44,333 nucleotides of DNA. Origin: an uncultured Lachnospiraceae bacterium. Lineage in GTDB: Bacteria > Bacillota > Clostridia > Lachnospirales > Lachnospiraceae. Of this stretch, positions 7,035-40,573 are shown in pieces. The stretch is from NCBI GenBank assembly GCA_902761665.1, contig CACWLA010000011.1, positions 1 through 44,333 of the forward strand, in the 5' to 3' direction. The position numbers were made by a program, and so were the translations under genes. Every line of letters starts with the position of its first letter. The stretch's first letter is position 1. The notes below the pieces were generated by a model that saw only the letters and a program-made list of their open reading frames with translations, was not told the origin of the DNA and did no database searches.

Positions 7035-7048
7035 ATGCAAGCCCTCTC

Positions 7049-7498
7049 TCAAATCAAAAAGCCTGTTGGCAAATTGATATGCATAAGCACCTTAAAAATC
7101 AGGAAGAACACTGCGGTTACGGCAACACTGATTATAATAATCTTGACGCGGCTCATGCCGGGAACGCCCATAATCAATGAAACCGCCACCATAAACAGCA
7201 ATGTTGATACAGTCCAGCCAAGAACCGTGATCAGAATAATATACGCTGCAATCATTCCAAACATGATAAGCATGCGTTTTTTCTGGTCCGGAGGAATAGA
7301 CTTTGCTTTGTGCACAGGCTTATTTTTCTTCTCCTTCAACGCAACTGAAACAAACTCTGCAACGGAGAATATCATTCCCAGCGCGCAACAAAACAAAGGA
7401 AAAATTTTTGATGTCGAGCTGAAATTCAAAGCCATAACAGCAGCTGCAGCAAAAATCGCAAAAACCACAGCTGCCACGATTTTGTTTTCTTTGTACAT
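7049..7498 (-). CDS. tctB: Tripartite tricarboxylate transporter small permease TctB
   Basis: A 149-residue membrane protein with four predicted hydrophobic segments and the charged central loop typical of TctB (here rich in lysine around residues 55-75). It is the small subunit of the TTT transporter. AAAGGAG lies about eight bases upstream of the ATG. It sits between tctC and tctA, the usual order in this family. Confidence 0.88.
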   Translation of the reverse strand: MYKENKIVAAVVFAIFAAAAVMALNFSSTSKIFPLFCCALGMIFSVAEFVSVALKEKKNKPVHKAKSIPPDQKKRMLIMFGMIAAYIILITVLGWTVSTLLFMVAVSLIMGVPGMSRVKIIIISVAVTAVFFLIFKVLMHINLPTGFLI

Positions 7499-7520
7499 AA
7501 TATTTGCTCCTTTTATAGAA

Positions 7521-7549
7521 CTGCCGTCCCCGAAGCAAGGAGACGGCAG
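7521..7549 (-). promoter_or_regulatory. Hairpin in the tctC-tctB intergenic region
   Basis: An 8-bp perfect stem, CTGCCGTC (7521-7528) with GACGGCAG (7542-7549), lies in the 82-base gap between tctC and tctB. There is no T-run after it on the minus strand. A likely role is protection of the tctC message 3' end, giving more binding protein than permease; that role is inferred from similar solute-binding-protein operons. Confidence 0.6.
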
Positions 7550-7580
7550 CGGGAAGGAACTGTGTAATAATTATCAACTA

Positions 7581-8627
7581 TTACTTTAAGAGTTCTGAGC
7601 AGGCGGCGTAAGTATCATCAATGAGTTTCTGTGCCTCTGCTGCAGGGCGATAGTCAACGGTAGTCACATACACATTATGGTTTTCATCCACATATTCTTT
7701 GTATTCAGCCATTTCGCCGAACAGACGGGACAGATAATTAATAATAGCGGGGTCCGTTCCCTTCTTTACAAAGAAGCAACGGGTGGTCGGGATCTTCAGG
7801 TCCACGCCTTTTTCAACAAGAGTAGGAACGTTCGGGAACAAATCGCTTCTCTTTTCGGCAGCTACAGCAATTGTGATTGCCTGATCAGCATCCGTGTTTG
7901 AAGCTGACACAGCACTCATCTCAGCATCTACATGCCCGCCAAGCAGAGCAGCATGGACTTCGTTGGTCGAAGTATAATGAACAACGTTGAATTCGTAGCC
8001 AAGCTTCTTTGCCAGAAGGGTTGCCATAAGACCGCCGGCACCATTTGCACCAGGCGTGCCAATCGTCAATTCACCGGGATGTGCTTTCATATAAGCTTCA
8101 AACTCTTCCCAGTTGGAAAAACGGGGATCGCCGGCTTTGATGGTGATTGAACGCGCATCATCGTGCATGGCGCAAATGGCAGAGAAGTCTTCAGCAACAA
8201 GCATGTTCGTTGTCATCTGTGCTTTTAAGTTTTCTTTTTCAATAAGCTTATAATCGTTAGGATCCGCAAGCGTCAGGTTTGCCAGATAGATTTTCAAACC
8301 GTCTGCGGGGGAGGCTGTTACGTCTGCCGCAGCAACACGTCCGCTAGAGCCGGCAATGTTGGTGACAACATAATTGTCACCGGTCAAGATTGTTGCGTAT
8401 TTGGCAGCCACACGGCAGTTGTTGTCTTGAGCGCCGCCGGCGTTAAATCCGCATACGACAGTTACAGTACCACCCTTCGGATATCCTGCAGGCTTAATTG
8501 ATTTGGCGGTGCCGTCATCGGTGTTTCCGCTTGCGGCTGGGGCAGTCGTTGAGCCTCCGCCTCCGCCACAGGCTGCCAATGATAAAACCATCATTGCAGC
8601 AAGGACAAGTGCAAACAGTTTTTTCAT
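7581..8627 (-). CDS. tctC: Tripartite tricarboxylate transporter substrate-binding lipoprotein TctC
   Basis: A 348-residue TctC/Bug-type solute-binding protein. The N terminus is a lipoprotein signal peptide with lipobox LAAC around residues 17-20, followed by a glycine-rich and Ser/Thr/Ala-rich linker, so it is anchored to the outer face of the membrane. The mature part has the family features GYPKGGTVTVVCGFNAGGAQ and LTIGTPGANGAGGLMATLLA. AAGGAGGAG precedes the ATG. It is the first gene of the minus-strand operon and is divergent from the LysR gene. The ligand, probably a carboxylate, cannot be told from sequence. Confidence 0.92.
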   Translation of the reverse strand: MKKLFALVLAAMMVLSLAACGGGGGSTTAPAASGNTDDGTAKSIKPAGYPKGGTVTVVCGFNAGGAQDNNCRVAAKYATILTGDNYVVTNIAGSSGRVAAADVTASPADGLKIYLANLTLADPNDYKLIEKENLKAQMTTNMLVAEDFSAICAMHDDARSITIKAGDPRFSNWEEFEAYMKAHPGELTIGTPGANGAGGLMATLLAKKLGYEFNVVHYTSTNEVHAALLGGHVDAEMSAVSASNTDADQAITIAVAAEKRSDLFPNVPTLVEKGVDLKIPTTRCFFVKKGTDPAIINYLSRLFGEMAEYKEYVDENHNVYVTTVDYRPAAEAQKLIDDTYAACSELLK

Positions 8628-23603: not shown

Positions 23604-25358
23604 TTACCACGAATCGTTGTCGTCGAAATCCAGCAGGGTGGGATCGAGCGGTTCTTCGTGCATGACGGTGAACATATAGTCGTTGACGATCTGGCGGATC
23701 TCGCGGCGGGAGACCGTGCGCTTATCCGGCAGCGCGTGCGGCATCCAGATCGCGTGGATGCCCCGTTTGCGGAATTCGTCCTCGAACATGCCGTGGACGC
23801 CCTGCATGCCCTTGCATGCCAGCTGGTCGTACATCATGACCATGTCGCAGTTGAAGCGTTCCATGTACTGCCAGAGCTGGAAGATGTGCTCGTGGCCGCC
23901 GACGGCCATCGCGCGCATGGGCGCCTTCTCGTTGAACCAGGTGAGGTCTTCCAGGGCGTGCTCGTAGGTGTCGGTGCGAAGCATCTGGTCGAACATCAGG
24001 GAGTCCATGTTGATGATGCAGTTGAGACCCCAGCAGTTGTAAGCCCAGGTGCACCAGTGCGAGTAGTACAGCGGCGCGCAGCTCCAGGCGATCACGCGGT
24101 GGCGGGTCTTCGGGAAGGAGTTGATCTTCTGCGTCACGCACTTTTCGATGATGCGTCTGACTTTCTTGTCGACGAAGTGCCAGATGTCACGGTCGCCGTC
24201 CTGCGAATAGTAGATGCGGTACAGCGCCTGCGCGACGCCGGTGATCGGATAGTAATCCGTATTCGCGGCGATGTCCCATTTCTCATGCTCGAATTCGGTG
24301 AGCTTGTTGAAGGCTTCTGCGTGCTTTACGTATTCGTCCCAGTTCATCTTCTGGCCGGTCTGCTCCTCGATGAAGCGCCAGCAGCCTTCGATCTCTTCCT
24401 GGCAGTGCTTCTGTACGAGCGGGTCGTCGTAGCGCATCGGCTGCGGCATGGCATAGAGCGGGCGGTCGAGGAACCAGTCCTGCAGAATGGAGGTGCCGAC
24501 GGAGCCGTCGCAGGCTTCGTTCGAGGTCACGACCACGGGGCTGTAATCCGGAACGTCGTTCAGCACGAAGATGCCGGCTTCGGCCTGGCACATCGGGCAG
24601 GGGTCGCCCGGCAGGCCGATGGACTGCGCGGCGTCGATGTAGTTCAGCACGGTATGGTTGTTGACGTGGCAGGTGACGAAGTAGGGGATCATCTGCAGGG
24701 CGACGTCGTCCATGCGGTCGCGCCAGCCGTAGAAGATGTTTCCGGAAACGGTCTCGTCATGGGAAATGGTGTTCTTCCAAAGTTCATTTGCCTCGCCGCC
24801 GTTTAAGCGCTTATCGGCGGAGAACATGCGCATGAACTGGCGGATGGACTCATTGACCATGCCGCGGTAGTGCCAGGCAGAAGCCCGGAGCGCTTCGCCG
24901 CGCGTGCCTTCCAGGCCGCGGTCGAACCAGTGCATGACGGTGAGATAGCACTGCCCCATCCAGCGGTAGCGCATGGCTCCTTTCAGCGCGGTGATCGGGC
25001 CGCCGTACTTCATGATGTCGGTCACCATGTGGGCGTAGTTGTACAGCCAGATCATATTGAAATAATACATGGTGTCCTTGACGCCGCGCCATTCACGGTG
25101 CTTGTAGAGGCCGGTACCGGGAACGTACAGGTCGCCCAGGCGGCGTTCTTCGTGCGGCTTGCCGTAAATGAAATCGCGGGCGACTTTTTTTGCGTCAAGA
25201 TTCCTGATCTTATCCGCCGTATCTTTCGCCTTCTGTTTGAAATCGGTCGTTTTCAGCTTTTCAAGCTTGGCTGCGGCCGCTTCCTTCAGCTTCAGTTCCT
25301 GGAGCCAGCCCTTGGAGAACAGGCGGATCTCCTTTGCTTCATTGGTCTTGTAGATCAT
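23604..25358 (-). CDS. 2-hydroxyacyl-CoA dehydratase, large subunit (locus 1)
   Basis: A 584-residue protein of the HgdA/HgdB/BcrB-BcrC superfamily (2-hydroxyacyl-CoA dehydratase/benzoyl-CoA reductase), about 100 residues longer than typical HgdA because of an N-terminal extension rich in Lys and Ala helices. Conserved cysteines likely to hold a 4Fe-4S cluster are in DPCPMCQAE, NEACDGS and DQLACKG. These enzymes remove water from a 2-hydroxyacyl-CoA, or reduce an aromatic acyl-CoA, by one-electron chemistry. It is a paralogue of 34238-36022, sharing the HREWRGVKDT-like segment and the C terminus EEPLDPTL. The start overlaps the upstream subunit gene by four bases (ATGA). No activator gene is adjacent. 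Confidence 0.88.
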   Translation of the reverse strand: MIYKTNEAKEIRLFSKGWLQELKLKEAAAAKLEKLKTTDFKQKAKDTADKIRNLDAKKVARDFIYGKPHEERRLGDLYVPGTGLYKHREWRGVKDTMYYFNMIWLYNYAHMVTDIMKYGGPITALKGAMRYRWMGQCYLTVMHWFDRGLEGTRGEALRASAWHYRGMVNESIRQFMRMFSADKRLNGGEANELWKNTISHDETVSGNIFYGWRDRMDDVALQMIPYFVTCHVNNHTVLNYIDAAQSIGLPGDPCPMCQAEAGIFVLNDVPDYSPVVVTSNEACDGSVGTSILQDWFLDRPLYAMPQPMRYDDPLVQKHCQEEIEGCWRFIEEQTGQKMNWDEYVKHAEAFNKLTEFEHEKWDIAANTDYYPITGVAQALYRIYYSQDGDRDIWHFVDKKVRRIIEKCVTQKINSFPKTRHRVIAWSCAPLYYSHWCTWAYNCWGLNCIINMDSLMFDQMLRTDTYEHALEDLTWFNEKAPMRAMAVGGHEHIFQLWQYMERFNCDMVMMYDQLACKGMQGVHGMFEDEFRKRGIHAIWMPHALPDKRTVSRREIRQIVNDYMFTVMHEEPLDPTLLDFDDNDSW

Positions 25359-26563
25359 GCTTCACCTCCGGAGGCTTTCTGGGCCTGCGCCAGTTTCTTG
25401 AGTTCGATGCTCTCGACGAAGGCCTGGAAACGGGTCCTCAGCTGGCCGACGGCGTTGTTGACATATTCCTTTTCGATGGAGCAGACCGGGATGCCGTAGT
25501 CGCGGTTCAGGACGACGGTATCGATCGTGCGCTCGTAGCTCCAGTATTCGCAGAACTTCATCTGTGCGATGACGATGCCGTCCGCCTTGTACTCTTTCGC
25601 GACGTTCGCGAGATATGCCTTGCGGTCACGCATGACGTGCTGTTCCATGAAGCGCGGGCACTGGCTGTTTTCCAGATAGTGGCGGGCTATCGCGCGGAGC
25701 GGGGTCTCGCCTTCCTTTACGACGATGTCCTCGCGGCCGGGAAGGGAGCCGTAGCAGTGGCGGTCGGCAACGACCAGGGCGCCGCATTCCTCGATCAGCT
25801 TCGTGAAGTCCGGATCGTCCTCTTCGGAGCCGGCAAGGACGACCTTGCAGCGCCACGAAGGCTTCTCGTCGGGTTCGCGGGTCTTTAACTGCTCGGCGAT
25901 GTCGCGCAGCTTGTCCATGATGAGGTACTTCGGGCAGACCTGCGTGACCAGCTGGATGATCTGGAACTCGCGGCCGGTGATGGTCGGATTGTCGAGTTTC
26001 CGGTATTCGCCGATCTCGCGGATCAGGCGGCAGAGTTCGTTGTGCTCCTCGATGGCCTTAAGCAGTGCTTCATCCGAAACGTCGATCCCGAAATGCTCAT
26101 GCAGCTTGTCCAGCACGTGGGCCTGCAGCTGGCGGGCGTAGTGGTCGACGGAGTTTTCATTCTTCTTGAAGGGGACGTCGGTGAACTCACAGAAGAAATC
26201 GGGGTTCTGGATGACGTCCATCCGCTGCAGATGTTCCTGAAAGCGGCAGGTCACGGTGCAGGTCTCGGTCGCCATTTCGGCGTCGAGGAAGTTGAAGCCG
26301 CCTTCCATGGCACGCTCCAGAAGGCAGCGGCCGTACATGCAGGTCCGGTTGGTCATGTAGTAGGTCGCGATGTCCGGCGAAGTGCTCCGGGGCGCGCGGA
26401 GACGCACGGAGAAGCAGCCGGGGATGTCCAAAAGGACTTCCGGCATGAAGTTGCAGGTATAACCGAGGGCGCGTTTTCCCTCTTCCTTTGCCTGCCGTAC
26501 GAGGTCGTTGCCTGCTTCCTGGAGCAGGTCTTCAAATTCAATGATGTGTACTAGGTCACGCAC
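25355..26563 (-). CDS. 2-hydroxyacyl-CoA dehydratase, small subunit (locus 1)
   Basis: A 402-residue HgdB-like subunit. Three cysteines at positions 37 (GYTCNFMPE), 270 (RHCYGS) and 338 (KFCEYW) match the expected 4Fe-4S ligands; the locus 2 homologue has cysteines at exactly the same positions. I chose the GTG at 26563 because GGGAGGTC lies about seven bases upstream and the locus 2 homologue begins at the same place in the alignment. It is the first gene of its operon. A small hairpin (GCAGAC-GGT-GTCTGC, 26608-26622) lies in its leader. The upstream alcohol dehydrogenase is separated by a strong terminator, so this operon needs its own promoter, which I could not place. Confidence 0.88.
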   Translation of the reverse strand: MRDLVHIIEFEDLLQEAGNDLVRQAKEEGKRALGYTCNFMPEVLLDIPGCFSVRLRAPRSTSPDIATYYMTNRTCMYGRCLLERAMEGGFNFLDAEMATETCTVTCRFQEHLQRMDVIQNPDFFCEFTDVPFKKNENSVDHYARQLQAHVLDKLHEHFGIDVSDEALLKAIEEHNELCRLIREIGEYRKLDNPTITGREFQIIQLVTQVCPKYLIMDKLRDIAEQLKTREPDEKPSWRCKVVLAGSEEDDPDFTKLIEECGALVVADRHCYGSLPGREDIVVKEGETPLRAIARHYLENSQCPRFMEQHVMRDRKAYLANVAKEYKADGIVIAQMKFCEYWSYERTIDTVVLNRDYGIPVCSIEKEYVNNAVGQLRTRFQAFVESIELKKLAQAQKASGGEA

Positions 26564-26685
26564 GCAGGGACCTCCCTTTCGTTTCCGGTTCTTATTTACG
26601 GTCAATTGCAGACGGTGTCTGCTCCCTCGTATCAATCTATCATATTTTTTTGAAAACGTAAACCGGAAAATGCACAGAAATAAAA

Positions 26686-26737: not shown

Positions 26738-27955
26738 TTAGAAATCCACTTCGGTGTCGTAGTAGCAGCACTTCAGCAGCTTTTCCATCTCTTCCTGGCT
26801 CGGCTGGCGGGGGTTGGAACCGGTGCAGGCGTCTTCCAGCGCGCGGGCGGCGATGCCGGGCAGTCTTTCCAGGAAGACTTCTTCCGGAACGAAGCCCTGC
26901 TCGGTCGGATAGCTGTCCTTGCCGTAATGGCCGATGCAGTGCGGGATGTTCATGTCGTTATTCATCTTGCGCAGATAAGCGATCAGGAGGGCGACCTTCT
27001 CGTCATCGTTCTTTCCGCCGAGGTGCATGTAGTCGGCGATCACGCCGTAGCGCTTCTTCGCGGTCTCATCCTTGGCGTTGAAGGCGATGACCTTCGGCAG
27101 GTACATGGCGTTGGCCGCGCCGTGGATGATGTGGGCGCCGTAGTCGGCGAAGACCGCGCCGGTCTTGTGGGCCATGGAGTGGACGATGCCGAGCAGCGCG
27201 TTGGAGAAGGCCATGCCGGCCAGGCATTGTGCATAGTGCATGCGGTCGCGGGCTTCCATGCTGCCGTTGTAGGAATCAACGAGGTCGGCCTGGATCATTT
27301 CGATCGCGTGGATGGCCAGCGGATCGGTGAATTCGCAGTTCGCAGTGGAAACGTAGGCCTCGATCGCGTGGGTCATGGCGTCCATGCCGGTGTGGGCAAC
27401 CAGCTTCTTCGGCATGGTCTCGGCCAGTTCGGGGTCAACGATGGCGACGTCGGGCGTGATCTCGAAGTCGGCGATCGGGTACTTGGTGCCCTTCGCGTAA
27501 TCGGTGATGATGGAGAACGCCGTTACCTCGGTCGCGGTGCCGGAAGTCGAGGAGACCGCGCAGAATTTGGCTTTGTGACGGAGTTCGGGGATGCCAAAGA
27601 CCTTGCACATGTCTTCAAAGGTGCATTCCGGATACTCGTACTTGATCCACATAGCCTTAGCCGCGTCAATGGGGGAACCGCCGCCGATCGCGACGATCCA
27701 GTCGGGGCCGAATTCCTGCATGACGGCAGCGCCCTTCATGACAGTCTCGACGGAGGGATCGGATTCGATGCCTTCGAACAGCTTCACTTCCATGCCGGCT
27801 TCTTCCAGATACTTCTGTGCTCTGTCAAGGAAACCGCCGCGCTTCATGGAGCCGCCGCCCACGCAGATGATGGCCTTTTTACCCTTGAAGGTCTTCAGAA
27901 CTTCAAGAGAGCCTTTGCCGTGGTAAATGTCTCTCGGTAACGTAAAACGTGCCAT
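26738..27955 (-). CDS. Iron-containing alcohol dehydrogenase
   Basis: A 405-residue group III alcohol dehydrogenase. NAD(P)-binding motif VAIGGGSPIDAAKAMW is near residue 90, and the metal-binding region HTGMDAMTHAIEAYVS is near 200, followed by the His ligands in LGIVHSMAHKTGA and HGAANAMYLP. Members include butanol and 4-hydroxybutyrate dehydrogenases; the exact substrate is not evident. Likely reduces an aldehyde in fermentation. A clean promoter lies upstream and a strong terminator downstream, so it is probably a well-expressed single-gene unit. GGAGG precedes the ATG. Confidence 0.92.
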   Translation of the reverse strand: MARFTLPRDIYHGKGSLEVLKTFKGKKAIICVGGGSMKRGGFLDRAQKYLEEAGMEVKLFEGIESDPSVETVMKGAAVMQEFGPDWIVAIGGGSPIDAAKAMWIKYEYPECTFEDMCKVFGIPELRHKAKFCAVSSTSGTATEVTAFSIITDYAKGTKYPIADFEITPDVAIVDPELAETMPKKLVAHTGMDAMTHAIEAYVSTANCEFTDPLAIHAIEMIQADLVDSYNGSMEARDRMHYAQCLAGMAFSNALLGIVHSMAHKTGAVFADYGAHIIHGAANAMYLPKVIAFNAKDETAKKRYGVIADYMHLGGKNDDEKVALLIAYLRKMNNDMNIPHCIGHYGKDSYPTEQGFVPEEVFLERLPGIAARALEDACTGSNPRQPSQEEMEKLLKCCYYDTEVDF

Positions 27956-31016: not shown

Positions 31017-31775
31017 ATGCATCAGGCTAGTGTTATCGCGCTGACCGGCAAAGGCGGGGTCGGCAAGACGTCGCTGTCTGCCGCCATCGTGAGAGTGTTA
31101 ACGGAAGCGCACCCTGAGGCGAAAATACTTGCCATCGACGCGGATCCGGCCATTGGCCTTTCCGTGGCTCTTGGCGTGGAAGTAAAAGAAACGCTGGACG
31201 AGATCAGGCTGCGCGTCGCGAAGGATGTGACCGAAGGACTGCAGGATACGCAGGATATTCTCGCGGAGGCGAAATTCCGTATTTTCGAAGCCATGCAGGA
31301 ACAGAAAGGCTTTGCCTTCCTCGCGATCGGACGCCCCGAGGCGGCCGGCTGTTACTGCGCCATCAATACGTACCTTCGGCAGGTGATCAGCCTGCTCGTG
31401 AATGAATTCGACTACGTCGTCATCGACGGCGAGGCGGGCATCGAACAGATAAACCGCCGCGTCATGGAGAAGGTGACGCATCTTTTGTGCGTCTCGGACC
31501 AGAGCCGGAAGGGCATCCAGATCATCTCCACGATCAAGGAGGTTTCGGACAAATTGGCCTCGGCGGATAAGGTGGGCGCGGTCTTAAACCGCGTGCTGCT
31601 CCCCGAGCGGATCACCGAGACCGAGATCGGCGGCGTCCCGCTCATCGCCGTCATCCCGCCGGATCCCGCCCACGCGGAAAACGACATCGAAGGAAAGAGC
31701 GTCTTCGATCTTCCCGACGACTCCACGATCCTCGCCGGCGCCCGGAAGATTCTGCAGAAGATGGGATTGCTGTGA
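31017..31775 (+). CDS. CooC-type ATPase (nickel/CODH maturation-like)
   Basis: A 252-residue MinD/ParA-superfamily ATPase of the CooC branch. The deviant Walker A motif GKGGVGKTS is near residues 10-18, the switch region DADPAIGL follows near 42, and VVIDGEAGIEQINRR near 132 is typical of CooC. The segment GCYCAINTYLR carries two cysteines in the place where CooC has its CxC metal-binding pair. CooC inserts nickel into carbon monoxide dehydrogenase. No CODH catalytic gene is in the window, but CooT-like and His-rich genes lie 6-7 kb downstream. AAGGAG precedes ATG 31017. The next gene starts 28 bases after its stop. Confidence 0.85.
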   Translation: MHQASVIALTGKGGVGKTSLSAAIVRVLTEAHPEAKILAIDADPAIGLSVALGVEVKETLDEIRLRVAKDVTEGLQDTQDILAEAKFRIFEAMQEQKGFAFLAIGRPEAAGCYCAINTYLRQVISLLVNEFDYVVIDGEAGIEQINRRVMEKVTHLLCVSDQSRKGIQIISTIKEVSDKLASADKVGAVLNRVLLPERITETEIGGVPLIAVIPPDPAHAENDIEGKSVFDLPDDSTILAGARKILQKMGLL

Positions 31776-31803
31776 TTTTTTGAAAAGCAAATGAAAGGAG
31801 ACG

Positions 31804-32760
31804 GTGATTTCCGGGATCCGGAAATGCCGGGCAAAGATAATGAATTGTTTGACAAGGGCATTTACTGTGGCAGCGATAAGACCGGTACCGATCGTGGCAG
31901 CGGTTTTGATCGTTGTTTTGATTGCTGTCCTGATAAAACTCTCGCTTGCGGTGGTCCCGACCGGGCACACCGGAGTCGTCGTGACTTTCGGAAGAGTGGA
32001 GGACCGCACATTGGATGCCGGGATCCACTGGAAAAAGCCCTGGCAGAAACTGATCAATATGGACAACCGTGTGCAGAAAGCCAGATTGAAGCTGAACTGC
32101 TATTCTGCCGACATTCAGGAAGTTTCCGTCGTTTATACGGTCAACTATCAGATCCGTAAGGAAAATGCGATGACGATCTACAGTACGATTGGAAAATCGT
32201 ATTTCGAAACGGTATTTTCGCCGAACGTATCGGAAGCTGTGGAGGTCATGACGGCAAAATATACGGCGGAAAATCTGATTTCCTCCCGTGACGAGCTTGC
32301 GAAACTGATTGAAGACCTGCTGAAGGAAAAGCTGTCCCCGTATCATATCCTGATCGTGGGGACCTCCATTGAGGGAATGGACTTTACCGAGGCCTTCACC
32401 AATGCGGTGGAATCCAAGCAAGTCGCAGCACAGAACAAGCTGCAGGCGGAGATCGAACAGGCTCAGAAGACCATGGAGCAGGAGGCGCAGGCACAGCGGA
32501 ATGTGATCGATGCGAATGCGGCTTCGGAAGTGGCAAGGATCCAGGCGGAATCGGATCTGAGAGTGACCAAGATCCAGGCCGATGCCGCTGAGTATGCCGG
32601 ACAGAAGGAAGCGGCCAAGAACAAGGCCATTTCGGAATTCCTGACGAAAGACCTGCTGGATTATTATTACGTTCAGCAGTGGAACGGGAAACTTCCCGAA
32701 AATTATGTCGGCAGCGACAGGGTCAACACCCTCATAGGTCTGGGAAACAAGCACGAATAA
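31804..32760 (+). CDS. SPFH/Band 7 (prohibitin-like) membrane protein
   Basis: A 318-residue protein with an N-terminal membrane helix (about residues 23-50), an SPFH/Band 7 domain (VPTGHTGVVVTFGRVEDRTL and the stretch to about 190) and a long Ala/Glu/Gln-rich coiled coil (about 200-285, AAQNKLQAEIEQAQKTMEQE). Such proteins form large rings or scaffolds in membrane microdomains. GTG 31804 is the likely start, with AAAGGAG three to four bases upstream; ATG 31840 is an alternative. The close spacing to the CooC-like gene suggests cotranscription, but no functional link is known. Confidence 0.83.
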   Translation: MISGIRKCRAKIMNCLTRAFTVAAIRPVPIVAAVLIVVLIAVLIKLSLAVVPTGHTGVVVTFGRVEDRTLDAGIHWKKPWQKLINMDNRVQKARLKLNCYSADIQEVSVVYTVNYQIRKENAMTIYSTIGKSYFETVFSPNVSEAVEVMTAKYTAENLISSRDELAKLIEDLLKEKLSPYHILIVGTSIEGMDFTEAFTNAVESKQVAAQNKLQAEIEQAQKTMEQEAQAQRNVIDANAASEVARIQAESDLRVTKIQADAAEYAGQKEAAKNKAISEFLTKDLLDYYYVQQWNGKLPENYVGSDRVNTLIGLGNKHE

Positions 32761-32773
32761 ACTTCCGCCGCCC

Positions 32774-32792
32774 GGCGGACGCCCCGTCCGCC
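32774..32792 (+). terminator. GC-rich hairpin after the SPFH gene
   Basis: GGCGGACG-CCC-CGTCCGCC, 14 bases after the stop codon, followed by CTTTC rather than a true T-run. A second small hairpin (AGGAC-CTCA-GTCCT) follows. Weak terminator or 3' end stabiliser. Confidence 0.5.
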
Positions 32793-32897
32793 CTTTCACA
32801 GGACCTCAGTCCTGAAAAGGGAAAGGATGCGATTAAGATTATCAGCGCCGAGCGTATCGGACATATTTTCGCTTTTCTTCACAGCGAGCGCGCCCGA

Positions 32898-32953
32898 AAT
32901 GTTCTTTCGAGGCGACTTTGAAGCGAAGCGGAACGGAGCCGAGAAAGAATATT
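32898..32953 (+). repeat. Third copy of the GA/GA hairpin element
   Basis: AATGTTCTTTC (32898-32908)-GA-GGC pairs with GCC-GA-GAAAGAATATT (32943-32953), one G-T pair. It keeps the symmetrical GA/GA mismatch of the hairpins in 22168-22360 but has different flanking pairs. It lies in the leader region of the second dehydratase operon, in the same orientation relative to transcription as those copies. Confidence 0.6.
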
Positions 32954-33031
32954 CGAGGCAGCGAGCAGGACAGCTTAAGTCCGGACGCGAGGCGCAGCGA
33001 ATACACGCACATTTTTAGGAAGGGAGGTCCT

Positions 33032-34234
33032 ATGAAAGATCTCAAATACCTGATCGAATTTGAAAACCTGCTGGAGGACGCCGACAACGCCCTGGTCCGG
33101 CAGGCGCAGGAGGAGGGAGGAATTGCGGTCGGCTATACCTGCTACCACATGCCGGAAGTGCTCTGCAACGTGGGCAAAGCCTTCTCGGTGCGCATCCGCG
33201 CGCCGCGCACGGGCAGCATCGATATCGCCACCTACTACATGTCCAACTATACCTGCGAGTACGCCAGGTCCCTGCTCGAGAGAGCAATCGAAGGCGGCTA
33301 CCAGTTCCTGGATGCGCTTGCCGGCGTTGACGCCTGCTCCGCCATGAACCGCTGCTACGAGCACATGGAGATCCTGAACTGCAACACGAAGCCGAATTTC
33401 TTCGTCAGCCACTGTGACATTCCGTATAAGGTAGAAACTTATACCGTGGAGCAGATGCGCACCCAGATGAGGATCCATCTCCTGGATGAGCTGACGGCGC
33501 GCTACGGCGTGGACACCTCCGACGAAGCCCTGCTGAAGGCTGTCGAGGAACACAACGAAGTCTGCCGCATCATCACCGAGATCGGCAACCTCAGGAAGCT
33601 GCCGAATCCGCCGGTCACCGGTTACGAATTCCACGTGATCGTTCTGGCAAGCTACTGCTGCCCGAAGGCGCTCATCCTGCCGAAGCTCCGCGAAACGCTG
33701 GAGGAGATCCGGAACCGCGAACCCGACGAGAAGCCGAAGTTCCGCGCAAGAGTCGCCGTGGTCGGCAGCGAGATCGACGACCTCGATTTCACCCGCCTGC
33801 TGGAAGATGCCGGCGCCCTGGTCGTGGCCGACCGCTACTGCTACGGCTCGACCCCCGGCCGCGAGGAGATCGTGATCAACGAAGGCGAGGACATCCTCAC
33901 CCAGATCGTGCGGCACTACATGAAGACCTCCGAATGCGCGCGCTATATGAGCGAAGAAAAGATCACGCAGCGCCGCGAGACGGCCGACCGCCTGGCCCAT
34001 GAATACGGCGCGGACGGCATCGTCTACGAGCAGATGAAGTTCTGCGATTTCTGGGCCTTCGAGCGTCCGCTTGCCAGCCACATCCTTCACGATGAATACG
34101 GCTGGCCGGTGCTGTCGATCGACCGTCCGTACAACGTCCGCAACTCCGGACAGCTCCGCACCCGTTTCCAGGCCTTCGTGGAAGCCCTGGAGATCAAACG
34201 GATCCACGCGGCAGAAGCAAAGGAGGAGGAATAA
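33032..34234 (+). CDS. 2-hydroxyacyl-CoA dehydratase, small subunit (locus 2)
   Basis: A 400-residue HgdB-like subunit, paralogue of the 25355-26563 product. Cysteines at 37 (GYTCYHMPE), 270 (RYCYGS) and 338 (KFCDFW) are the likely iron-sulfur ligands. ATG 33032 has GGGAGGTCC just upstream; an in-frame extension back to 32918 would run through the hairpin repeat and has no family similarity. It begins the operon that continues to the oxidoreductase at 40517. It should pair with the large subunit 4 bases downstream. Confidence 0.9.
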   Translation: MKDLKYLIEFENLLEDADNALVRQAQEEGGIAVGYTCYHMPEVLCNVGKAFSVRIRAPRTGSIDIATYYMSNYTCEYARSLLERAIEGGYQFLDALAGVDACSAMNRCYEHMEILNCNTKPNFFVSHCDIPYKVETYTVEQMRTQMRIHLLDELTARYGVDTSDEALLKAVEEHNEVCRIITEIGNLRKLPNPPVTGYEFHVIVLASYCCPKALILPKLRETLEEIRNREPDEKPKFRARVAVVGSEIDDLDFTRLLEDAGALVVADRYCYGSTPGREEIVINEGEDILTQIVRHYMKTSECARYMSEEKITQRRETADRLAHEYGADGIVYEQMKFCDFWAFERPLASHILHDEYGWPVLSIDRPYNVRNSGQLRTRFQAFVEALEIKRIHAAEAKEEE

Positions 34235-34237
34235 ACA

Positions 34238-36022
34238 ATGGCTAAGATCAAATATCCCGATCCGAAATTCTTCCGCATGAAGGACCATATTGACTGGAAA
34301 GCCCAGCTGGAGAACCTGAAGGAAGTCGGCGGCATCGTCGGCGGCATGCTGAAGGAGACCGACTGGAAAGGCGTCGCCAAGGCCATGGGGAACGAATGGA
34401 AGGCCTTCGGCAAGCGCGCGAAGATGGAAGCCGGCCTGTTCGCGAAGATGACGAACGAAGAGCGCCTCGACTGGCTCATCAACGGTGAAAAGCAGCTTGG
34501 CAAGCTTTACCGGAACGGCAAGATGGCCACCGTCCGCCGCGAATGGCGCGGCCTGAAGGACACGGCCTACGACTACTACGAATGGCTCCACATGTGGGGA
34601 ATGCTCCTTTCGACCTTCTCCAAGGACCTCATCCCGGCCTTAAACGGCGCGGTCCACTACCGCTGGATGATCTCCTATTTCTGCTGCCATTCCTTCATGG
34701 ACAAGAATACGCTCGGCCTGCGCGGCAACGCGCTCAAGATGCACCACGAACTGATCTTCGCGATCTTCCGCTACGTGGCGGAGAACCTGGTGCTCCTGAT
34801 GAAGAGCGACGAGAAGAACGGCAACTCGACCGACCTTTCCAAGAAGATCGTGCTGCTTGACGAAATGACCATGGCGCAGATCATGGCCGGCTTCCCGGAT
34901 CTGGTGGGCATCCCGTATCAGCTGATGCCGGTGTTCCTGCTTTCCGAGATCGACCAGCTCGCCTGCATGCCGTACATCGACGCCGTCGAAAGCTACGGCC
35001 TGCCGTCCGATACCTGCCCGGTCCCGACCTCCGAATGCGGCGCCTGCGTCATCGACGCCCTGCCGCACATGGGCGCCTGCTTCATTTCCAGCTCGATGCC
35101 CTGCGACGGATCCGTCATGGCCTCGTCCTACACGAGCCGCCGCTTCAAGGATCTGCCGACCTACCACCTCTGCTTCCCGGTCCGCTACGAGGACGAATCC
35201 TCCATGCAGGCGGCCGTGGCCGACATCAAGGGCTGCATCAAGTTCATCGAAGAACAGACCGGTGCGAAATGGAGCTGGGACGCTTACTTCGCCGCCATAA
35301 AGCGTTTCAACAAGGAAACGCAGTATGAGCTGCAGAAGTGGGAAGTCAACCAGACGCCGTTCCCGCAGCTGATCGGCCCGTGCTACGAGCTGTTCCGCAA
35401 GTGGAATTACGAGATGGACGGCGGCCTCGATCCGCGCATCATGAATACCTTCAAGAAGGTCGACAAGATCATGATGGAAGCGTATTCGAAGAAGGAAGAG
35501 CCGTGGCGCGGCAAGATGCGCCACCGCGCGATCGTCTGGAGCGTGCCGGCGCACTACTACGCCAACTTCTCCAACTGGCTGGCCAACTGCTGGGGCATCA
35601 ACGTGCTCGTGGAAATGGAAAGCCTGAACTTCACGAAGCCGCTCGAGACCGAAGATCCCGAAGAAGCCCTGAAGGACATGGCGAGACTCTACGAGCGCAT
35701 GGTCATGCGCCGTCACACGAACGGCGGCTACGACCACGTGCTGACCGAGCTCTGGCGCCAGGTCGAGATCTGGAAGCCGGACATCGTCATCATGTACCAG
35801 CACGTTTCCTGCAAGAACATGTCCACGCTGAACGGCCTCTTCGACGATCAGGCGAGAGAACACGGCGTGCGCCTCATCTGGATCGAACACGACCTGATGG
35901 ATCCGCGCACCGTTTCCCGCAAGGACATGCGCGCGAAGGTCAACGAATACATGCGCACGGTCATGCGCGAAGAGCCGCTTGATCCGTCGCTCGTGGACTT
36001 CGAGGACGACGCCAGCTGGTAA
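34238..36022 (+). CDS. 2-hydroxyacyl-CoA dehydratase, large subunit (locus 2)
   Basis: A 594-residue subunit of the dehydratase/benzoyl-CoA reductase superfamily with the same N-terminal extension as locus 1. Likely cluster cysteines are in DTCPVPTSECGAC, SMPCDGS and HVSCKNM. It shares RREWRGLKDTAYDYYEW and the C terminus REEPLDPSLVDFEDDASW with its paralogues, including the fragment at the right edge of the window. The gene follows the small subunit after a three-base gap, and an activator gene follows. The long N-terminal part may be a docking domain; this is inferred from its presence in two paralogues and absence from classic HgdA. Confidence 0.9.
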   Translation: MAKIKYPDPKFFRMKDHIDWKAQLENLKEVGGIVGGMLKETDWKGVAKAMGNEWKAFGKRAKMEAGLFAKMTNEERLDWLINGEKQLGKLYRNGKMATVRREWRGLKDTAYDYYEWLHMWGMLLSTFSKDLIPALNGAVHYRWMISYFCCHSFMDKNTLGLRGNALKMHHELIFAIFRYVAENLVLLMKSDEKNGNSTDLSKKIVLLDEMTMAQIMAGFPDLVGIPYQLMPVFLLSEIDQLACMPYIDAVESYGLPSDTCPVPTSECGACVIDALPHMGACFISSSMPCDGSVMASSYTSRRFKDLPTYHLCFPVRYEDESSMQAAVADIKGCIKFIEEQTGAKWSWDAYFAAIKRFNKETQYELQKWEVNQTPFPQLIGPCYELFRKWNYEMDGGLDPRIMNTFKKVDKIMMEAYSKKEEPWRGKMRHRAIVWSVPAHYYANFSNWLANCWGINVLVEMESLNFTKPLETEDPEEALKDMARLYERMVMRRHTNGGYDHVLTELWRQVEIWKPDIVIMYQHVSCKNMSTLNGLFDDQAREHGVRLIWIEHDLMDPRTVSRKDMRAKVNEYMRTVMREEPLDPSLVDFEDDASW

Positions 36023-36127
36023 AGATCTTCCCTGTCATCCCAAGGCGGGCACGGCCCGGCGAAGGATAAGGCAGAGGGCGCTGACATAACACATCATTAA
36101 TGAATCATATAAAGGAGAACATATATC

Positions 36128-36928
36128 ATGAAATATTTCGGCGGCTGCGACGTTGGGTCGACTTACACCAAGGCAGTGATCGTGGACGAGAACGGCAAGA
36201 TCGTGGCGGATACCACGATGAAGAGCAAGATCAATGCGGAAGAGAGCGCGAAGCTCGCGATGGCCGAGGTCCTGAAACAGGTCGGGCTGGAGAAGTCCGA
36301 AGACCTCGAATACCTCATCGGCACCGGTTACGGGCGCAACAAGGTCCCGTTCGCGGATGAGAATATCTCCGAGATCTCCTGCCATGCCATGGGCGTGCAC
36401 GTTACGAACCCGAACGTCAAGGCTATCATCGACATCGGCGGCCAGGACATCAAGGGTATTTCCATTGATGCCGACGGCACCGTGAAGAACTTCGCCATGA
36501 ACGACAAATGCGCTGCCGGCACCGGCCGCTTCTACGAAGCCATGGCGCGTTCGTTCGAAATGAGCCTGCCCGAATTCTCGAAGCTGTCCCTGAGCGCGAA
36601 GAACGTGATCCCGATCACCGCGCAGTGCACCGTTTTCGCGGAATCCGAAGTCATCACCCTGGTGGGCGAAGGCAAGCCCATGAACGAGATCGCGGCCGGC
36701 ATCCAGATGGCTGTCGCAAAGCGCTGCTTCGTCATGAGCAAGAAGGCCGGCGCGACCGATTCCATCACCCTGACCGGCGGCTGCGCGAAGAACGACGGCC
36801 TGAAGGCGGCCATCGAGCACGTGCTGAAGCTGAAGGTCGTGGATCTTGACACCGATCCGCAGCTGATGGGTGCGCTCGGCGCAGCGGAATATGCCCGTCA
36901 GAAAGGAATGGCGAAAAAGACCGCCTGA
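36128..36928 (+). CDS. 2-hydroxyacyl-CoA dehydratase activator ATPase (HgdC-like)
   Basis: A 266-residue activase of the BadF/BadG/BcrA/BcrD family, ASKHA ATPase fold. The phosphate-binding motifs are GGCDVGSTYTKAVI at the N terminus and IIDIGGQDIKGI near residue 100; LTGGCAKNDGL is the adenosine part. The cysteines at 128 (NDKCAAGTG) and 167 (AQCTVFAES) match the positions that hold the 4Fe-4S cluster at the dimer interface of HgdC. It passes one electron to the dehydratase, driven by ATP. It probably serves locus 1 too, since no activator is near that one. AAAGGAG lies upstream. Confidence 0.95.
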   Translation: MKYFGGCDVGSTYTKAVIVDENGKIVADTTMKSKINAEESAKLAMAEVLKQVGLEKSEDLEYLIGTGYGRNKVPFADENISEISCHAMGVHVTNPNVKAIIDIGGQDIKGISIDADGTVKNFAMNDKCAAGTGRFYEAMARSFEMSLPEFSKLSLSAKNVIPITAQCTVFAESEVITLVGEGKPMNEIAAGIQMAVAKRCFVMSKKAGATDSITLTGGCAKNDGLKAAIEHVLKLKVVDLDTDPQLMGALGAAEYARQKGMAKKTA

Positions 36929-36946
36929 GCGTGAAAGGAAAAGCGC

Positions 36947-37114
36947 ATGAAAGAATTTTTCAAAGTACTGAAGGTGGTCCTGGGGATCCTGGTAGCCCTG
37001 TGCATCGTGCTTTTCGTGGTCTATTTCTGGAACCTCGATCAGAAGCTCATGGAATGGGCCTACCGCAGAGTCAACACCATCTTTGACCGGAAGAAGACAG
37101 ACATCCGGTTCTAG
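36947..37114 (+). CDS. 55-aa single-pass membrane protein of dehydratase locus 2
   Basis: A 55-residue protein: MKEFFKVLKVVLG start, one membrane helix (about residues 8-27), then FWNLDQKLMEWAYRR and a basic tail ending in FDRKKTDIRF. It has the same length as the protein at 44078-44245 and shares the (V)YF-NLD-K motif after the helix. AAAGG lies upstream; the gene is 18 bases after the activator and 5 bases before the next gene, so it is in the operon. It is too short for many gene callers. No known family comes to mind. A membrane tether for the dehydratase complex is inferred. Confidence 0.82.
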   Translation: MKEFFKVLKVVLGILVALCIVLFVVYFWNLDQKLMEWAYRRVNTIFDRKKTDIRF

Positions 37115-37119
37115 CGGCA

Positions 37120-37815
37120 ATGAAGTTATACGACGCGATAATCAATGCGACAAGGGACGCGGCAGGCGGCGCGAAGCGCCTGCCGGAAAGGCCTGCCTGG
37201 CCGGATCTCGGCCGGAGCGAGCTTGTGATGCAGCGGGACGCCGCCTTTGAACTGGGCGGCTCCGGCTGCCCGTCCGTCAACTATACCTGCGTGACTACGT
37301 CGGCACTTCCGGGCGGCGAAGGGGTATTCCTGCTGGGCCGGGATCTTCCGGAACTGAAGAAGGATACGGCCTTTGCCCGCATCGTCGTGCTGCAGACGGA
37401 GGAGATCTCGGAGGATGACGAAGGCCACGACATGATCCGCTCGATGGAATACGTGCGCTATCACGTGTTTCCGACGGGCTACATGGTCCGCGTTTCCTCA
37501 ACGAGCTACGAAGAGCAGGTCCGGGTAAGCAAAGAGGCTGTTAAGCGCGGGATAAATTTTGCTGCGGTCGGCGCCGCGTACCTCGAAAAGTACAGGGCGG
37601 TGAAGGGCGTTAAGGCCGCGCAGATCGTTTTCATTACCGACGAAGCAGTCGTGAAAGCCCTGCAGCCGAACGCGAAGAAGGTCGAAGACATCACGAAGAC
37701 CCTCTCGCACATCTTGGACGGTCTGCCCACGGACTGCAGCCACTGCACGCTGAAGCCAGTCTGCGACGAAGTCGAGGGCATGAAGGAAATGCACCTCGGA
37801 AGGAAGAAATCATGA
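37120..37815 (+). CDS. Protein resembling part of acetyl-CoA synthase beta subunit (CdhC/AcsB)
   Basis: A 231-residue protein whose pattern recalls, from memory, the CdhC/AcsB (acetyl-CoA synthase) region outside the A-cluster domain: ELVMQRDAAFELGG, VFLLGRDLPELKKDTAF, GYMVRVSSTSYEEQVRVSKE and QIVFITDEAVVKAL. The C terminus has a Cys cluster, CSHCTLKPVC, that could bind metal. The catalytic A-cluster domain is absent, so it is unlikely to make acetyl-CoA. It sits directly before a His-rich protein and a CooT-like protein. A scaffold or metal-loading partner is plausible. I am moderately sure of the family. Confidence 0.55.
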   Translation: MKLYDAIINATRDAAGGAKRLPERPAWPDLGRSELVMQRDAAFELGGSGCPSVNYTCVTTSALPGGEGVFLLGRDLPELKKDTAFARIVVLQTEEISEDDEGHDMIRSMEYVRYHVFPTGYMVRVSSTSYEEQVRVSKEAVKRGINFAAVGAAYLEKYRAVKGVKAAQIVFITDEAVVKALQPNAKKVEDITKTLSHILDGLPTDCSHCTLKPVCDEVEGMKEMHLGRKKS

Positions 37816-38249
37816 AGTATTGCCATCACGACTATCACGGGGAGCATGACCACTGCTGCCATGAGCATCATCACGATCATGACCATGAAGGCTGCTGCCA
37901 TGAGCATGAGCATGATCACGATCACAAGCACTGCTGCCATGAACATGAGCACCATCATCACGATGAAGCGGTAAGAGACCCCGCTTCTTTAGGTGAACTC
38001 GAGAAGGCCCGCATCCTTCTTTCTCACATGCTGGATCACAATCAGCATCACGAAGAGGAACTGGCGGCGCTCGCGAAGCGCTTTACCGACGCCGGCGACG
38101 CGGCCACGGCAAAGAAGATCCGCTCGGCCCGAGCCCGCATGGTGGAAGCCAATCTCGCCCTGATGGAGGCCGTGAGCCTCGCCGCACCGAAAGCGGAAGA
38201 GACCTCTCCGGCGGAGAAGGAGCCCGCAGCCCCGGGACAGGAGGCGTGA
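37812..38249 (+). CDS. His/Cys-rich metal-binding protein (CooJ-like candidate)
   Basis: A 145-residue protein. The first 51 residues hold 23 His and 7 Cys, with three CCHEH units, followed by Asp/Glu-His pairs. From about residue 55 on it has a helical region (LGELEKARILLSHMLDHNQHHEEELAALAK) with further His, then a Pro/Ala/Glu-rich tail. It should bind several Ni, Zn or Co ions. The neighbouring CooT-like gene favours nickel. CooJ has a His-rich C terminus, so the order differs. The ATG overlaps the preceding stop by four bases. Confidence 0.78.
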   Translation: MKYCHHDYHGEHDHCCHEHHHDHDHEGCCHEHEHDHDHKHCCHEHEHHHHDEAVRDPASLGELEKARILLSHMLDHNQHHEEELAALAKRFTDAGDAATAKKIRSARARMVEANLALMEAVSLAAPKAEETSPAEKEPAAPGQEA

Positions 38250-38250
38250 C

Positions 38251-38466
38251 ATGTGCCTTTCGAACGTTTACCGCGCCTCGGACCGTGAGCTCATCATGGA
38301 ACTTGCGGCGCAGATCCGGCAGGAGGCGGGGTACGTCACCGTCCGCGACCTCTTCGGCGCTTCGAAGCGCATCCCCGGAAGCGTCGCATCCGTCGACCTC
38401 GAAAACAATGTAGTACTCATTCAGACGCAGGAGGCACCTGCGGATGTTAAAAAGGAGGTAATATGA
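38251..38466 (+). CDS. CooT-family nickel-binding protein
   Basis: A 71-residue protein that begins MCLSNVY, the Met-Cys start characteristic of CooT, whose Cys2 binds nickel. The remainder is a short beta-rich fold (YVTVRDLFGASKRIPGSVASV, VVLIQTQE) in agreement with the family. CooT works with CooC and CooJ in CO dehydrogenase maturation, and small CooT-like proteins also occur elsewhere. It is coupled to its neighbours: one base after the His-rich gene stop, and a four-base ATGA overlap with the oxidoreductase start. Confidence 0.8.
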   Translation: MCLSNVYRASDRELIMELAAQIRQEAGYVTVRDLFGASKRIPGSVASVDLENNVVLIQTQEAPADVKKEVI

Positions 38467-40517
38467 AGCAGGAATACCAAGCATTATTCACCCCCTGGAA
38501 AGTCGGCAACCTGGAAATCAAGAACAGGATCGTGCTGGCACCCATGGGCGGCACCTGCATTTTCGGTTGGATGGAACCCAACCACTTTGACAAGGAGGCG
38601 GCAAAGCTCCTGAAGAACGTCGCCGACAACAATTGCGGTCTGGTCATCCCCGGCATCGCGCCTATCCGCGACGTGCTCGGCCGCATGTGGCTGTACCAGA
38701 ACAAGGCGAAATTCAAAAAGCTCAAAGAGTTCATGGACGAGCTGCATAAGACCGGCGCCAAGATGTTCATCCAGATGACCGCGGGCTTCGGCCGCTCCAT
38801 GGCCCTGTCGGATGCCCTGGCGATGCTCGCCACCAACAAGGTCCTCGGCCGCATCGCGAGCCCCGTGATCGACGTCGAATACCTGACGGCTGCCCCGAGC
38901 GTGCTCCCGAACCGCTGGCACGACAAGGTCACCTGCCGTGAAGTGACGAAGAAGGAGATCGCGCAGATCGTCTATGCCTACGGCGAAACGGCCCGCCTGT
39001 GCAAGGAAGCCGGCGTCGACGGCGTGGAAGTGCACGCGGTGCATGAAGGCTATCTGCTTGACCAGTTCACGCTGAAATATACGAACCAGAGGAAGGACGA
39101 ATATGGCGGATCCTTCGAGAACCGCTACCGCTTCGCCGTGGAGATCGTCCAGGAGATCAAGAAGAAATGCGGCAAGGACTTCCCGGTCTCGCTCCGCTAT
39201 TCCGTCGTCTCCAAGACCAAGGCTTTCCGCGAAGGCGCGATGCCCGGCGAGGACTACATCGAGATCGGCCGCGACATGGAAGAGAGCGAGAAGGCTGCCA
39301 AGTACCTGCAGGATGCCGGCTACGACATGCTGAACTGCGATAACGGCACCTACGACGCCTGGTACTGGTCGCACCCGCCGCAGTACATGCCGCTCAACTG
39401 CAACCTTGAGGACGTTGAGCACATCAAGAAATTCGTGGATATCCCGGTAGTCTGCGCGGGCCGCATGCAGCCGAAGGACGGCGCTGCCGCAATCGAACGG
39501 GGCGGCATCGACGCCATGGCTGTGGGCCGTCAGTTCCTGGCCGACCCCGAATGGGTCACCAAGCTCCTCGCGGACAAGGAAGAAGAGATCCGTCCGTGCA
39601 TCGGCTGCCACGCCGCCTGCTTCAACCTGTCGAAGCACAACGGCACCGGCAACGATCAGGACTTCTCCGATACGCTCGGCATGTGCCGCTGCGCCATCAA
39701 CCCGCCGTCCATGCAGTCGAACAAGTACAAGATCGTTCCGACCAAGCATCCGAAGCGTATCGCCATCATCGGCGGCGGCATCGGCGGCATGGAAGCGGCC
39801 AGAGTCCTGAAACTGCGCGGCCACTATCCGACCATTTACGAGAAGAGCGGCGAGCTCGGCGGCATTTTCATCGCGGCTGCAGCCCCGTCCTTCAAGGAAA
39901 ACGATAAGAAGCTGATCGAATGGTTCAAGCTGCAGATGAAGGATCTGGACATCCCGGTGAAGTTGAATACCGAGGTGAAGGACCTGAATTCCCTGCTGGC
40001 CGACGAGATCATCATCGCCACCGGTACCACGCCGAAGAAGATCCCGATCCCGGGCGCCGAGCGCGCCATGGACGCGACGGAATACCTGCTCGGCGAGAAG
40101 GAAGTCGGCGACCACGTGGTCATCATCGGCGGCGGCCTGACCGGCTGCGAGATCACGCTCGACCTGTTCCGCAAGGGCAAACACCCGGCCATCGTGGAAA
40201 TGATGAACGACCTGATGGCGGTGAAGAACCTGTGCCTTGCGAACTCCAGCTATCTGCGCGACTGCTTCAAGACCAACAACATCCCGGTCTTCCTGGAAGC
40301 GAAGACGAAGGAGATCGGCCCGGATTACGTGCTGGTTGAAGGCAAGGACAAGCGGCTGACGAAGGTCCCGGCGGATTCCGTCATCTTCTCGGTCGGCTAC
40401 CGTCCCGCCCCGCTTGTTCCGGGCGGAAAGAACGTCCACCTCATCGGCGACTGCAACAAGGTGGGGAACCTCCGCAGCGCCATCTGGGGCGCCTGGGACG
40501 TCGCGATGAAGCTGTAA
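38463..40517 (+). CDS. 2,4-dienoyl-CoA reductase/old yellow enzyme-family FMN-FAD-FeS oxidoreductase
   Basis: A 684-residue protein. An FMN-binding TIM barrel (residues about 1-370, with GVEVHAVHEGYLLDQF) is followed by a Cys cluster CIGCHAACF and CRCAINP (about residues 379-410) for a 4Fe-4S cluster, and by a pyridine-nucleotide/FAD region with two GxGxxG-type motifs (IIGGGIGGMEA near 435 and IIGGGLTGCEI near 554). Family members reduce C=C bonds in unsaturated acyl-CoAs or bile-acid intermediates (BaiCD/BaiH). In this operon it may act on the unsaturated acyl-CoA made by the dehydratase. AAGGAGG precedes the ATG. Confidence 0.93.
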   Translation: MKQEYQALFTPWKVGNLEIKNRIVLAPMGGTCIFGWMEPNHFDKEAAKLLKNVADNNCGLVIPGIAPIRDVLGRMWLYQNKAKFKKLKEFMDELHKTGAKMFIQMTAGFGRSMALSDALAMLATNKVLGRIASPVIDVEYLTAAPSVLPNRWHDKVTCREVTKKEIAQIVYAYGETARLCKEAGVDGVEVHAVHEGYLLDQFTLKYTNQRKDEYGGSFENRYRFAVEIVQEIKKKCGKDFPVSLRYSVVSKTKAFREGAMPGEDYIEIGRDMEESEKAAKYLQDAGYDMLNCDNGTYDAWYWSHPPQYMPLNCNLEDVEHIKKFVDIPVVCAGRMQPKDGAAAIERGGIDAMAVGRQFLADPEWVTKLLADKEEEIRPCIGCHAACFNLSKHNGTGNDQDFSDTLGMCRCAINPPSMQSNKYKIVPTKHPKRIAIIGGGIGGMEAARVLKLRGHYPTIYEKSGELGGIFIAAAAPSFKENDKKLIEWFKLQMKDLDIPVKLNTEVKDLNSLLADEIIIATGTTPKKIPIPGAERAMDATEYLLGEKEVGDHVVIIGGGLTGCEITLDLFRKGKHPAIVEMMNDLMAVKNLCLANSSYLRDCFKTNNIPVFLEAKTKEIGPDYVLVEGKDKRLTKVPADSVIFSVGYRPAPLVPGGKNVHLIGDCNKVGNLRSAIWGAWDVAMKL

Positions 40518-40537
40518 TTCCTATCTGACGACAGCGT

Positions 40538-40573
40538 CCCGTACTGCAGATCCTGCGGTACGGGGCGTTTTTT
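40538..40573 (+). terminator. Terminator of the second dehydratase operon
   Basis: CCCGTAC (40538-40544) and GTACGGG (40558-40564) with an inner GCAG/CTGC pair, then GCGTTTTTTG. Confidence 0.88.

Follow-up and report, generated by a model that had tools for sequence, protein, structure and literature searches.

A conserved gene cassette places a benzoyl-CoA-reductase/2-hydroxyacyl-CoA-dehydratase-like system beside candidate nickel-handling proteins in Lachnospiraceae and relatives

The closest described counterparts of the system considered here fall into two groups. For its reductase they are the class Ib benzoyl-CoA reductase (BCR) BzdNOPQ, the 3-methylbenzoyl-CoA reductase MbdONPQ, the (R)-2-hydroxyisocaproyl-CoA dehydratase (HAD) HadBC with its activator, and the double-cubane cluster protein (DCCP). 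For its other genes they are acetyl-CoA synthase (ACS; AcsB/CdhC) and the CooC/CooT/CooJ maturation set of carbon monoxide dehydrogenase (CODH). According to PMC11971306, the double-cubane ligands of BzdN are C36/73/100/263/293/327, HAD is without this cluster and DCCP is a homodimer. The locus lies in a window (the whole stretch analysed, 44,333 nucleotides) of contig CACWLA010000011.1 from an uncultured Lachnospiraceae bacterium (assembly GCA_902761665.1; genome G000 here), where two dehydratase-like subunits and an activase are followed by a truncated, CdhC-like ACS and genes resembling CODH maturation factors. We know of no dehydratase or class I benzoyl-CoA reductase that uses nickel, nor of any ACS fragment that functions outside CODH/ACS. 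Among the papers listed by literature searches, none presents this cassette in its title or in the opening of its abstract. What are these genes doing together? The conserved set suggests an undescribed, probably nickel-containing enzyme system, carried by gut bacteria that for the most part lack detectable CODH; we put the chances about even that it is a distinct nickel-linked subclass of the ATP-driven BCR/2-hydroxyacyl-CoA-dehydratase systems. The gene content originally predicted for 33032-40517 was confirmed by open reading frames (ORFs) and families (PF06050, TIGR00241, PF10133, translation), including the 23 His of the His-rich protein. The genes of the cassette and its downstream partners are:

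31017-31775, forward strand: CooC-type MinD/ParA ATPase with deviant Walker A GKGGVGKT and a CYC (CxC) motif; best phmmer match 3kje
33032-34234, forward strand: HgdB/BzdN-like subunit (PF06050, 304 bits; cut-off 28.4)
34238-36022, forward strand: long HgdA/BzdO-like active-site subunit, 594 residues (PF06050, 121 bits; cut-off 28.4)
36128-36928, forward strand: HgdC/BadF-type ATP-dependent activase (TIGR00241, 219 bits; cut-off 125.4)
37120-37815, forward strand: CdhC-like truncated ACS, 231 residues, with an A2 domain, C206-x2-C209-x5-C215 and H225
37812-38249, forward strand: His/Cys-rich protein, CooJ-like in composition (23 His and 7 Cys among residues 1-51 of the translation)
38251-38466, forward strand: CooT-like protein with an MC start (Cys2) (PF10133, 52 bits; cut-off 27)
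38463-40517, forward strand: iron-sulfur (Fe-S) flavoenzyme of the old yellow enzyme (OYE) family, BaiCD-like (PF00724, PF07992)

The two HGD-D subunits and the activase belong to the BCR/HAD superfamily (PF06050, TIGR00241). Judged from sequence and modelled structure, the reductase comprises HgdC as activase, an HgdB that carries the ligands of a double cubane, and an HgdA predicted to have the BzdO/HadB fold. In an alignment to BzdN (8s02_B), HgdB C37, C75, C102, C270, C302 and C338 are in register with the double-cubane ligands; C270 is kept in 57 of 58 sequences and the other five in all 58 (cysteine counts include the window sequence, and those for HgdA and HgdB also take in second pairs from the same loci). 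Compared with BzdO, HgdA is extended at the N-terminus by ~160 residues, mostly helical, and its C260, C289 and C525 are invariant, with C451 as an additional cysteine. Is this a benzoyl-CoA reductase? HgdB scores far below the equivalogs (TIGR03190, 74.6 against 453.8; TIGR02263, 48.7 against 421.2), and neither HgdB nor HgdC reaches the cut-off of any NCBIfam BCR subunit model that it matches. Compared with BzdNOPQ and MbdONPQ, the cassette has one activase instead of two, the long helical N-terminus of HgdA, and CooC and the ACS-derived protein in addition; if C289 corresponds to BzdO Cys128, the position of the acid/base His131 is an invariant Ser. HadBC and its activator share the subunit folds and the activase, but not the six ligands of HgdB or the extra nickel-linked genes. 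DCCP shares the six-cysteine ligand set and is likewise an ATP-dependent reductase, but it has one reductase gene, and the NF040772 score here is 136 (cut-off 350).

The set is by no means confined to this genome. A named-genome scan took in 100 relatives, 80 of which were retained; by title they are mostly Lachnospiraceae, Oscillospiraceae/Ruminococcaceae or other Clostridia, many of them from the ruminant gut. Where at least 6.5 kb of upstream sequence is available (48 loci), 47 loci have HgdC, 45 CooC, 44 HgdA and 43 HgdB, and the full quartet occurs in 43 (gene-neighbour, order and gap tallies rest on tblastn). Unsupervised clustering of the ORFs of the 80 loci returned HgdA, HgdB, HgdC, CooC and the CdhC-like protein as the five commonest families, in 43-70 loci against 20 for the next; these counts are lower bounds, as ORF picking sometimes chose antisense ORFs. 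Across the 27 loci in which all five are clean ORFs, the pairwise distances of these proteins are correlated, with coefficients of 0.75-0.96 (no background set). Across 98 genomes the CdhC-like protein is present in 15, G000 included, and long HgdA (E < 1e-50) in 16, namely all of these 15 plus G005, a genome 83% complete; six further genomes have weak long-HgdA matches only (E 3.4e-11 or worse).

In a sample of 398 genomes drawn evenly from the phylum, 58 match the CdhC-like profile. Besides G000, a small CdhC-like ORF was found in G306 only (245 residues, E 4.2e-39), the remaining matches being open frames of 712-814 residues, the size of AcsB, and six of ~400. The distant G306 copy (locus L161) has HgdB, an HgdA-like subunit, two activases, the CdhC-like protein and CooC in consecutive order, with an acyl-CoA dehydrogenase ahead of the row. 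A 594-residue protein without a Pfam family (L161 16187-17971, reverse strand) heads this distant cluster. As for the frames of ~400 residues, one of 397 residues resembling ACS A2 lies ~6 kb from a 736-residue, AcsB-size frame (L162, G179:C37:110000-126000), and other genomes also have A2-like frames of about that length.

How does the cassette relate to CODH? Fifty of the 80 loci were chosen, and searches for CODH, NiFe hydrogenase, HypA/HypB and corrinoid protein covered their genomes minus that of L087, hence 49, to which G000 was added for all searches except CODH. The CODH catalytic subunit passes the cut-off in 1 of the 15 and 7 of the 49 cassette genomes (G041 and G141 have the same CODH coordinates and probably represent a single genome), leaving 42 of the 49 searched with none over cut-off. 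The prediction that the gene order would be conserved in genomes both with and without CODH, set beforehand, was thus borne out. As originally observed, no CODH catalytic subunit is present in the operon, and none was found in G000 (94% complete), where searches also found no NiFe hydrogenase and no corrinoid Fe-S protein; these genes are not explained by a full CODH/ACS operon elsewhere in the genome. Three carriers are not labelled metagenome-assembled: Pseudobutyrivibrio sp. YE44, whose genome has a CODH match, and Eubacterium sp. 14-2 and Lachnospiraceae bacterium FE2018, which have none. We take the three to be isolates, and the system therefore looks testable.

The CdhC-like protein has the ACS A2 domain; the window copy reaches 21.1 bits against PF03598, just below the 24-bit cut-off, and the homologue in locus L062 passes with 36.1 bits. 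Relative to AcsB/CdhC it is without the N-terminal domain, the CGC Ni site and the rest of A3, and the fourth cluster Cys is replaced by His or lost. It is not a complete A-cluster protein: C-x2-C-x5-C is followed by His, and the 231-residue chain ends ahead of any CGC. Its cysteines are invariant in 71 of 71 sequences and, from the alignment, C-x2-C-x5-C is probably the start of the A-cluster motif (the comparison set was AcsB from L127, L128, L130 and L133-L160). The original description of a protein without the A-cluster domain holds for the nickel-binding part but probably not for these cysteines. No plasmid copies of the L062 protein were found.

The CooC-type ATPase has 3kje, a CooC, as its best solved relative, with the CxC aligned (phmmer, E 4.7e-15), and C112/C114 are kept in 42 of 42 sequences, window included. 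PMC6006190 gives the corresponding cysteines as the metal-binding pair of CooC-1. A genuine CODH/ACS operon has two CooC-type ATPases, to which the window protein is 35% and 31% identical. The closest homologues of both CooC and the CdhC-like protein come from nickel systems. CooC had been placed ~2 kb upstream of the operon; the ATPase itself is confirmed, but the separation is peculiar to the window. Here CooC and HgdB are 1.26 kb apart, with a Band-7/SPFH gene in between, while only 2-389 bp (median 64) separate them in the 49 relatives' loci that have the two, and tblastn found the Band-7 gene in none of the 80 relatives' loci. For these two reasons CooC is more likely the first cassette gene than a distant neighbour. 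The Band-7 gene is probably outside the system.

In the window, the CdhC-like, His-rich, CooT and OYE genes are tightly coupled (gaps of -4, +1 and -4 bp). Among the 63 loci with at least 4.5 kb 3' of the CdhC-like gene, CooT is found in 13 and HypA in 18, never both, with HypA in the place of CooT in other loci; likewise, OYE is found in 17 and an oxidoreductase with flavin adenine dinucleotide (FAD) and 4Fe-4S, GltD-like, in 18, again with no locus having both. CooT goes with OYE in 11 of the 63 loci and HypA with the FAD/4Fe-4S protein in 17, and the His-rich protein occurs in 9. The MC start of CooT is shared by the window and the 9 relatives shown; Cys2 of Rhodospirillum CooT has been implicated in nickel binding, according to PMC6006190. 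The CxC of CooC, Cys2 of CooT and a His-rich protein are what the locus shares with the CODH maturation set, from which it differs in having no CODH in the operon. The His-rich protein matches no Pfam or NCBIfam family at E 0.001, and its His-rich region is N-terminal, whereas that of CooJ is described as C-terminal. The OYE protein scores 346 bits against NF041087, below the cut-off of 825. HypA of L062 passes PF01155 with 102.5 bits.

How could such a system work? HgdC would hydrolyse ATP and drive electrons to the double cubane of HgdB and from there to a [4Fe-4S] cluster of HgdA, which may reduce a CoA thioester or similar substrate; the electrons could reach HgdC from the flavoenzyme or from ferredoxin. 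A CoA ester is the favoured substrate: the enzyme family points that way, as do the flavoenzymes and an acyl-CoA dehydrogenase close to the distant copy. The CdhC-like protein may carry an Fe-S, probably Ni-Fe-S, centre on C-x2-C-x5-C and act as an extra subunit or loading platform. CooC would insert the metal, presumably nickel, into this centre, with nickel supplied by the His-rich protein and CooT here and by HypA in another clade. The flavoenzyme (OYE here, the GltD-like FAD/4Fe-4S protein elsewhere) might feed electrons or handle the product. If true, this would bring a new metal and a new subunit to a superfamily that carries out some of the lowest-potential chemistry in biology, and would point to a specific candidate behind nickel use and unexplained CO or acyl-CoA metabolism in rumen and gut Clostridia. 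The original proposal of a nickel-dependent or CODH-related component linked to acyl-CoA chemistry is partly supported by the conserved set and the nickel-chaperone swap, with nickel as the probable metal and the CdhC-like protein as a putative subunit or maturation factor.

Several observations weigh against the nickel-linked subclass. The correspondence of the A-cluster cysteines is moderate, since shuffled tails did equally well in 14 of 300 and in 4 of 200 cases; H225 falls on a gap in all three MAFFT modes and is lost in the distant copy of G306. CooT, HypA, OYE and the FAD/4Fe-4S protein are all out of range in 26 of the 63 loci. The HypA of L062 fails the hypA equivalog TIGR00100 (64.7 against 88.1), and of the 83 genomes that lack the cassette, 21 have HypA as well. 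No Rfam family reached its gathering score in the window or in four loci, and therefore no nickel riboswitch was found there; promoter-like sites do not exceed the chance level.

A rival account, which we hold at perhaps half the weight of the nickel-linked subclass, does without nickel: CooC, as an Fe-S carrier ATPase, and the CdhC-like protein, as a scaffold, would act in the assembly or repair of HgdB's [8Fe-9S] double cubane, and CooT and HypA would be unrelated neighbours. CooC does match the NUBPL/Mrp-type Fe-S carrier model PF10609 weakly (19.3 bits, below cut-off), HgdB has all six double-cubane cysteines and C-x2-C-x5-C could bind a plain [4Fe-4S] cluster. However, the nearest homologues of CooC and the CdhC-like protein belong to nickel systems, and two distinct nickel-chaperone families recur at the cassette. 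Moreover, PMC11971306, on the BzdNO double cubane, mentions neither nickel nor CooC, and the cluster is therefore described there without such partners.

In the other direction, a bolder reading sees a new nickel enzyme class, an ATP-driven double-cubane reductase with a miniature ACS Ni-Fe-S subunit, which would perform C1/acyl-CoA chemistry and possibly provide a carbonyl branch (CO2 to CO/carbonyl transfer) in CODH-less gut Clostridia; we consider it unlikely. Similarly improbable is that this is an ordinary long-type 2-hydroxyacyl-CoA dehydratase, beside which a former CODH/ACS operon has left CooC and the CdhC-like protein behind as relics, retained through linkage. HgdA, HgdB and HgdC are indeed clear family members, and the CdhC-like protein is the fastest-diverging of the five core proteins (mean distance 0.55), but a single gene order across genomes, invariant cysteines and near-perfect co-occurrence are unexpected for relics, and G306, the genome of the distant copy, also has an AcsB-size match. 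Conservation thus disfavours the relics.

Least probable of all, and by our estimate very unlikely, is that the cassette is an alternative CO dehydrogenase/carbonyl branch in CODH-less Lachnospiraceae and relatives that explains 'Ca. Galacturonibacter soehngenii', an acetogen of the same family for which PMC7000372 reports CO dehydrogenase activity without CODH/ACS genes: that puzzle is open, an ACS-derived protein, CooC and CooT are all at hand and few cassette genomes have CODH, but a clear corrinoid Fe-S protein is limited to 4 of 50 genomes, among which three have CODH over cut-off, acyl-CoA chemistry is suggested by the flanking flavoenzymes and by an acyl-CoA dehydrogenase close to the distant copy, and the CGC site is absent from the CdhC-like protein, so that the usual acetyl-CoA synthesis is not expected.

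Acetyl-CoA synthesis of the usual kind was accordingly rejected, on the missing CGC site and the corrinoid count. Nine of the 50 genomes pass the low corrinoid cut-off, with four long matches and five short partial ones (ORFs of ~800-900 residues). A single genome, G142 (that of L089), fits the bolder reading unusually well and also speaks for the alternative CO dehydrogenase: CooC, both corrinoid subunits and an AcsE-type methyltransferase are clustered, with no CODH over cut-off (AcsB was not searched). The AcsC, AcsD and AcsE names were given by likeness to L127, with no family search, and the next upstream ORFs in L129 seem unrelated to CODH/ACS:

L129 9616-13856 (G142), reverse strand: CooC, AcsD-like and fused AcsC/AcsE-like genes in a row

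L127 itself has tandem AcsB genes, 80% identical, inside one CODH/ACS operon (3933-8368).

Two further candidates were set aside. HypA is a weak proxy for the cassette: it is over cut-off in 12 of 15 genomes with the cassette and 21 of 83 without, and 9 of those 12 are one genus. NiFe hydrogenase as the client of HypA/HypB was rejected: PF00374 is absent from G000 (urease and other nickel enzymes were not searched) and passes in 12 of the 50 genomes over positions 1-69 of 508 only; the cut-off for HypB is passed in 40 of the 50 and that for HypA in 43. In G000 itself (L120 8901-13672, G000:C17), HypB-HypB-HypA diverge from a 1003-residue FAD/4Fe-4S oxidoreductase that is 52% identical to the FAD/4Fe-4S protein of L062. 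HypB lies next to a similar large protein in L123, L124 and L125 too.

The remaining features of the window near the cassette are:

23604-26635, reverse strand: second long-HgdA/HgdB pair (23604-25358 and 25355-26635; PF06050) with no adjoining activase
31804-32760, forward strand: Band-7/SPFH gene between CooC and HgdB (PF01145)
40533-40569, forward strand: terminator-like hairpin 3' of the last gene, OYE (17 pairs, loop of 3, T run)

Terminator-like sites number 17 in the region against 10.7 in shuffles. The second HgdA/HgdB pair adjoins an iron-containing alcohol dehydrogenase gene (26738-27955), and several relatives have a divergent pair resembling it upstream of CooC; this genome has eight PF06050 matches in all, arranged as four pairs. 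Farther away, the window starts with an AMP-binding acyl-CoA ligase (8-1819, forward strand), followed on the reverse strand (1901-8627) by a TctABC tripartite tricarboxylate transporter, a 2-hydroxyacid dehydrogenase, an HpcH/HpaI aldolase and a metallo-beta-lactamase-fold protein.

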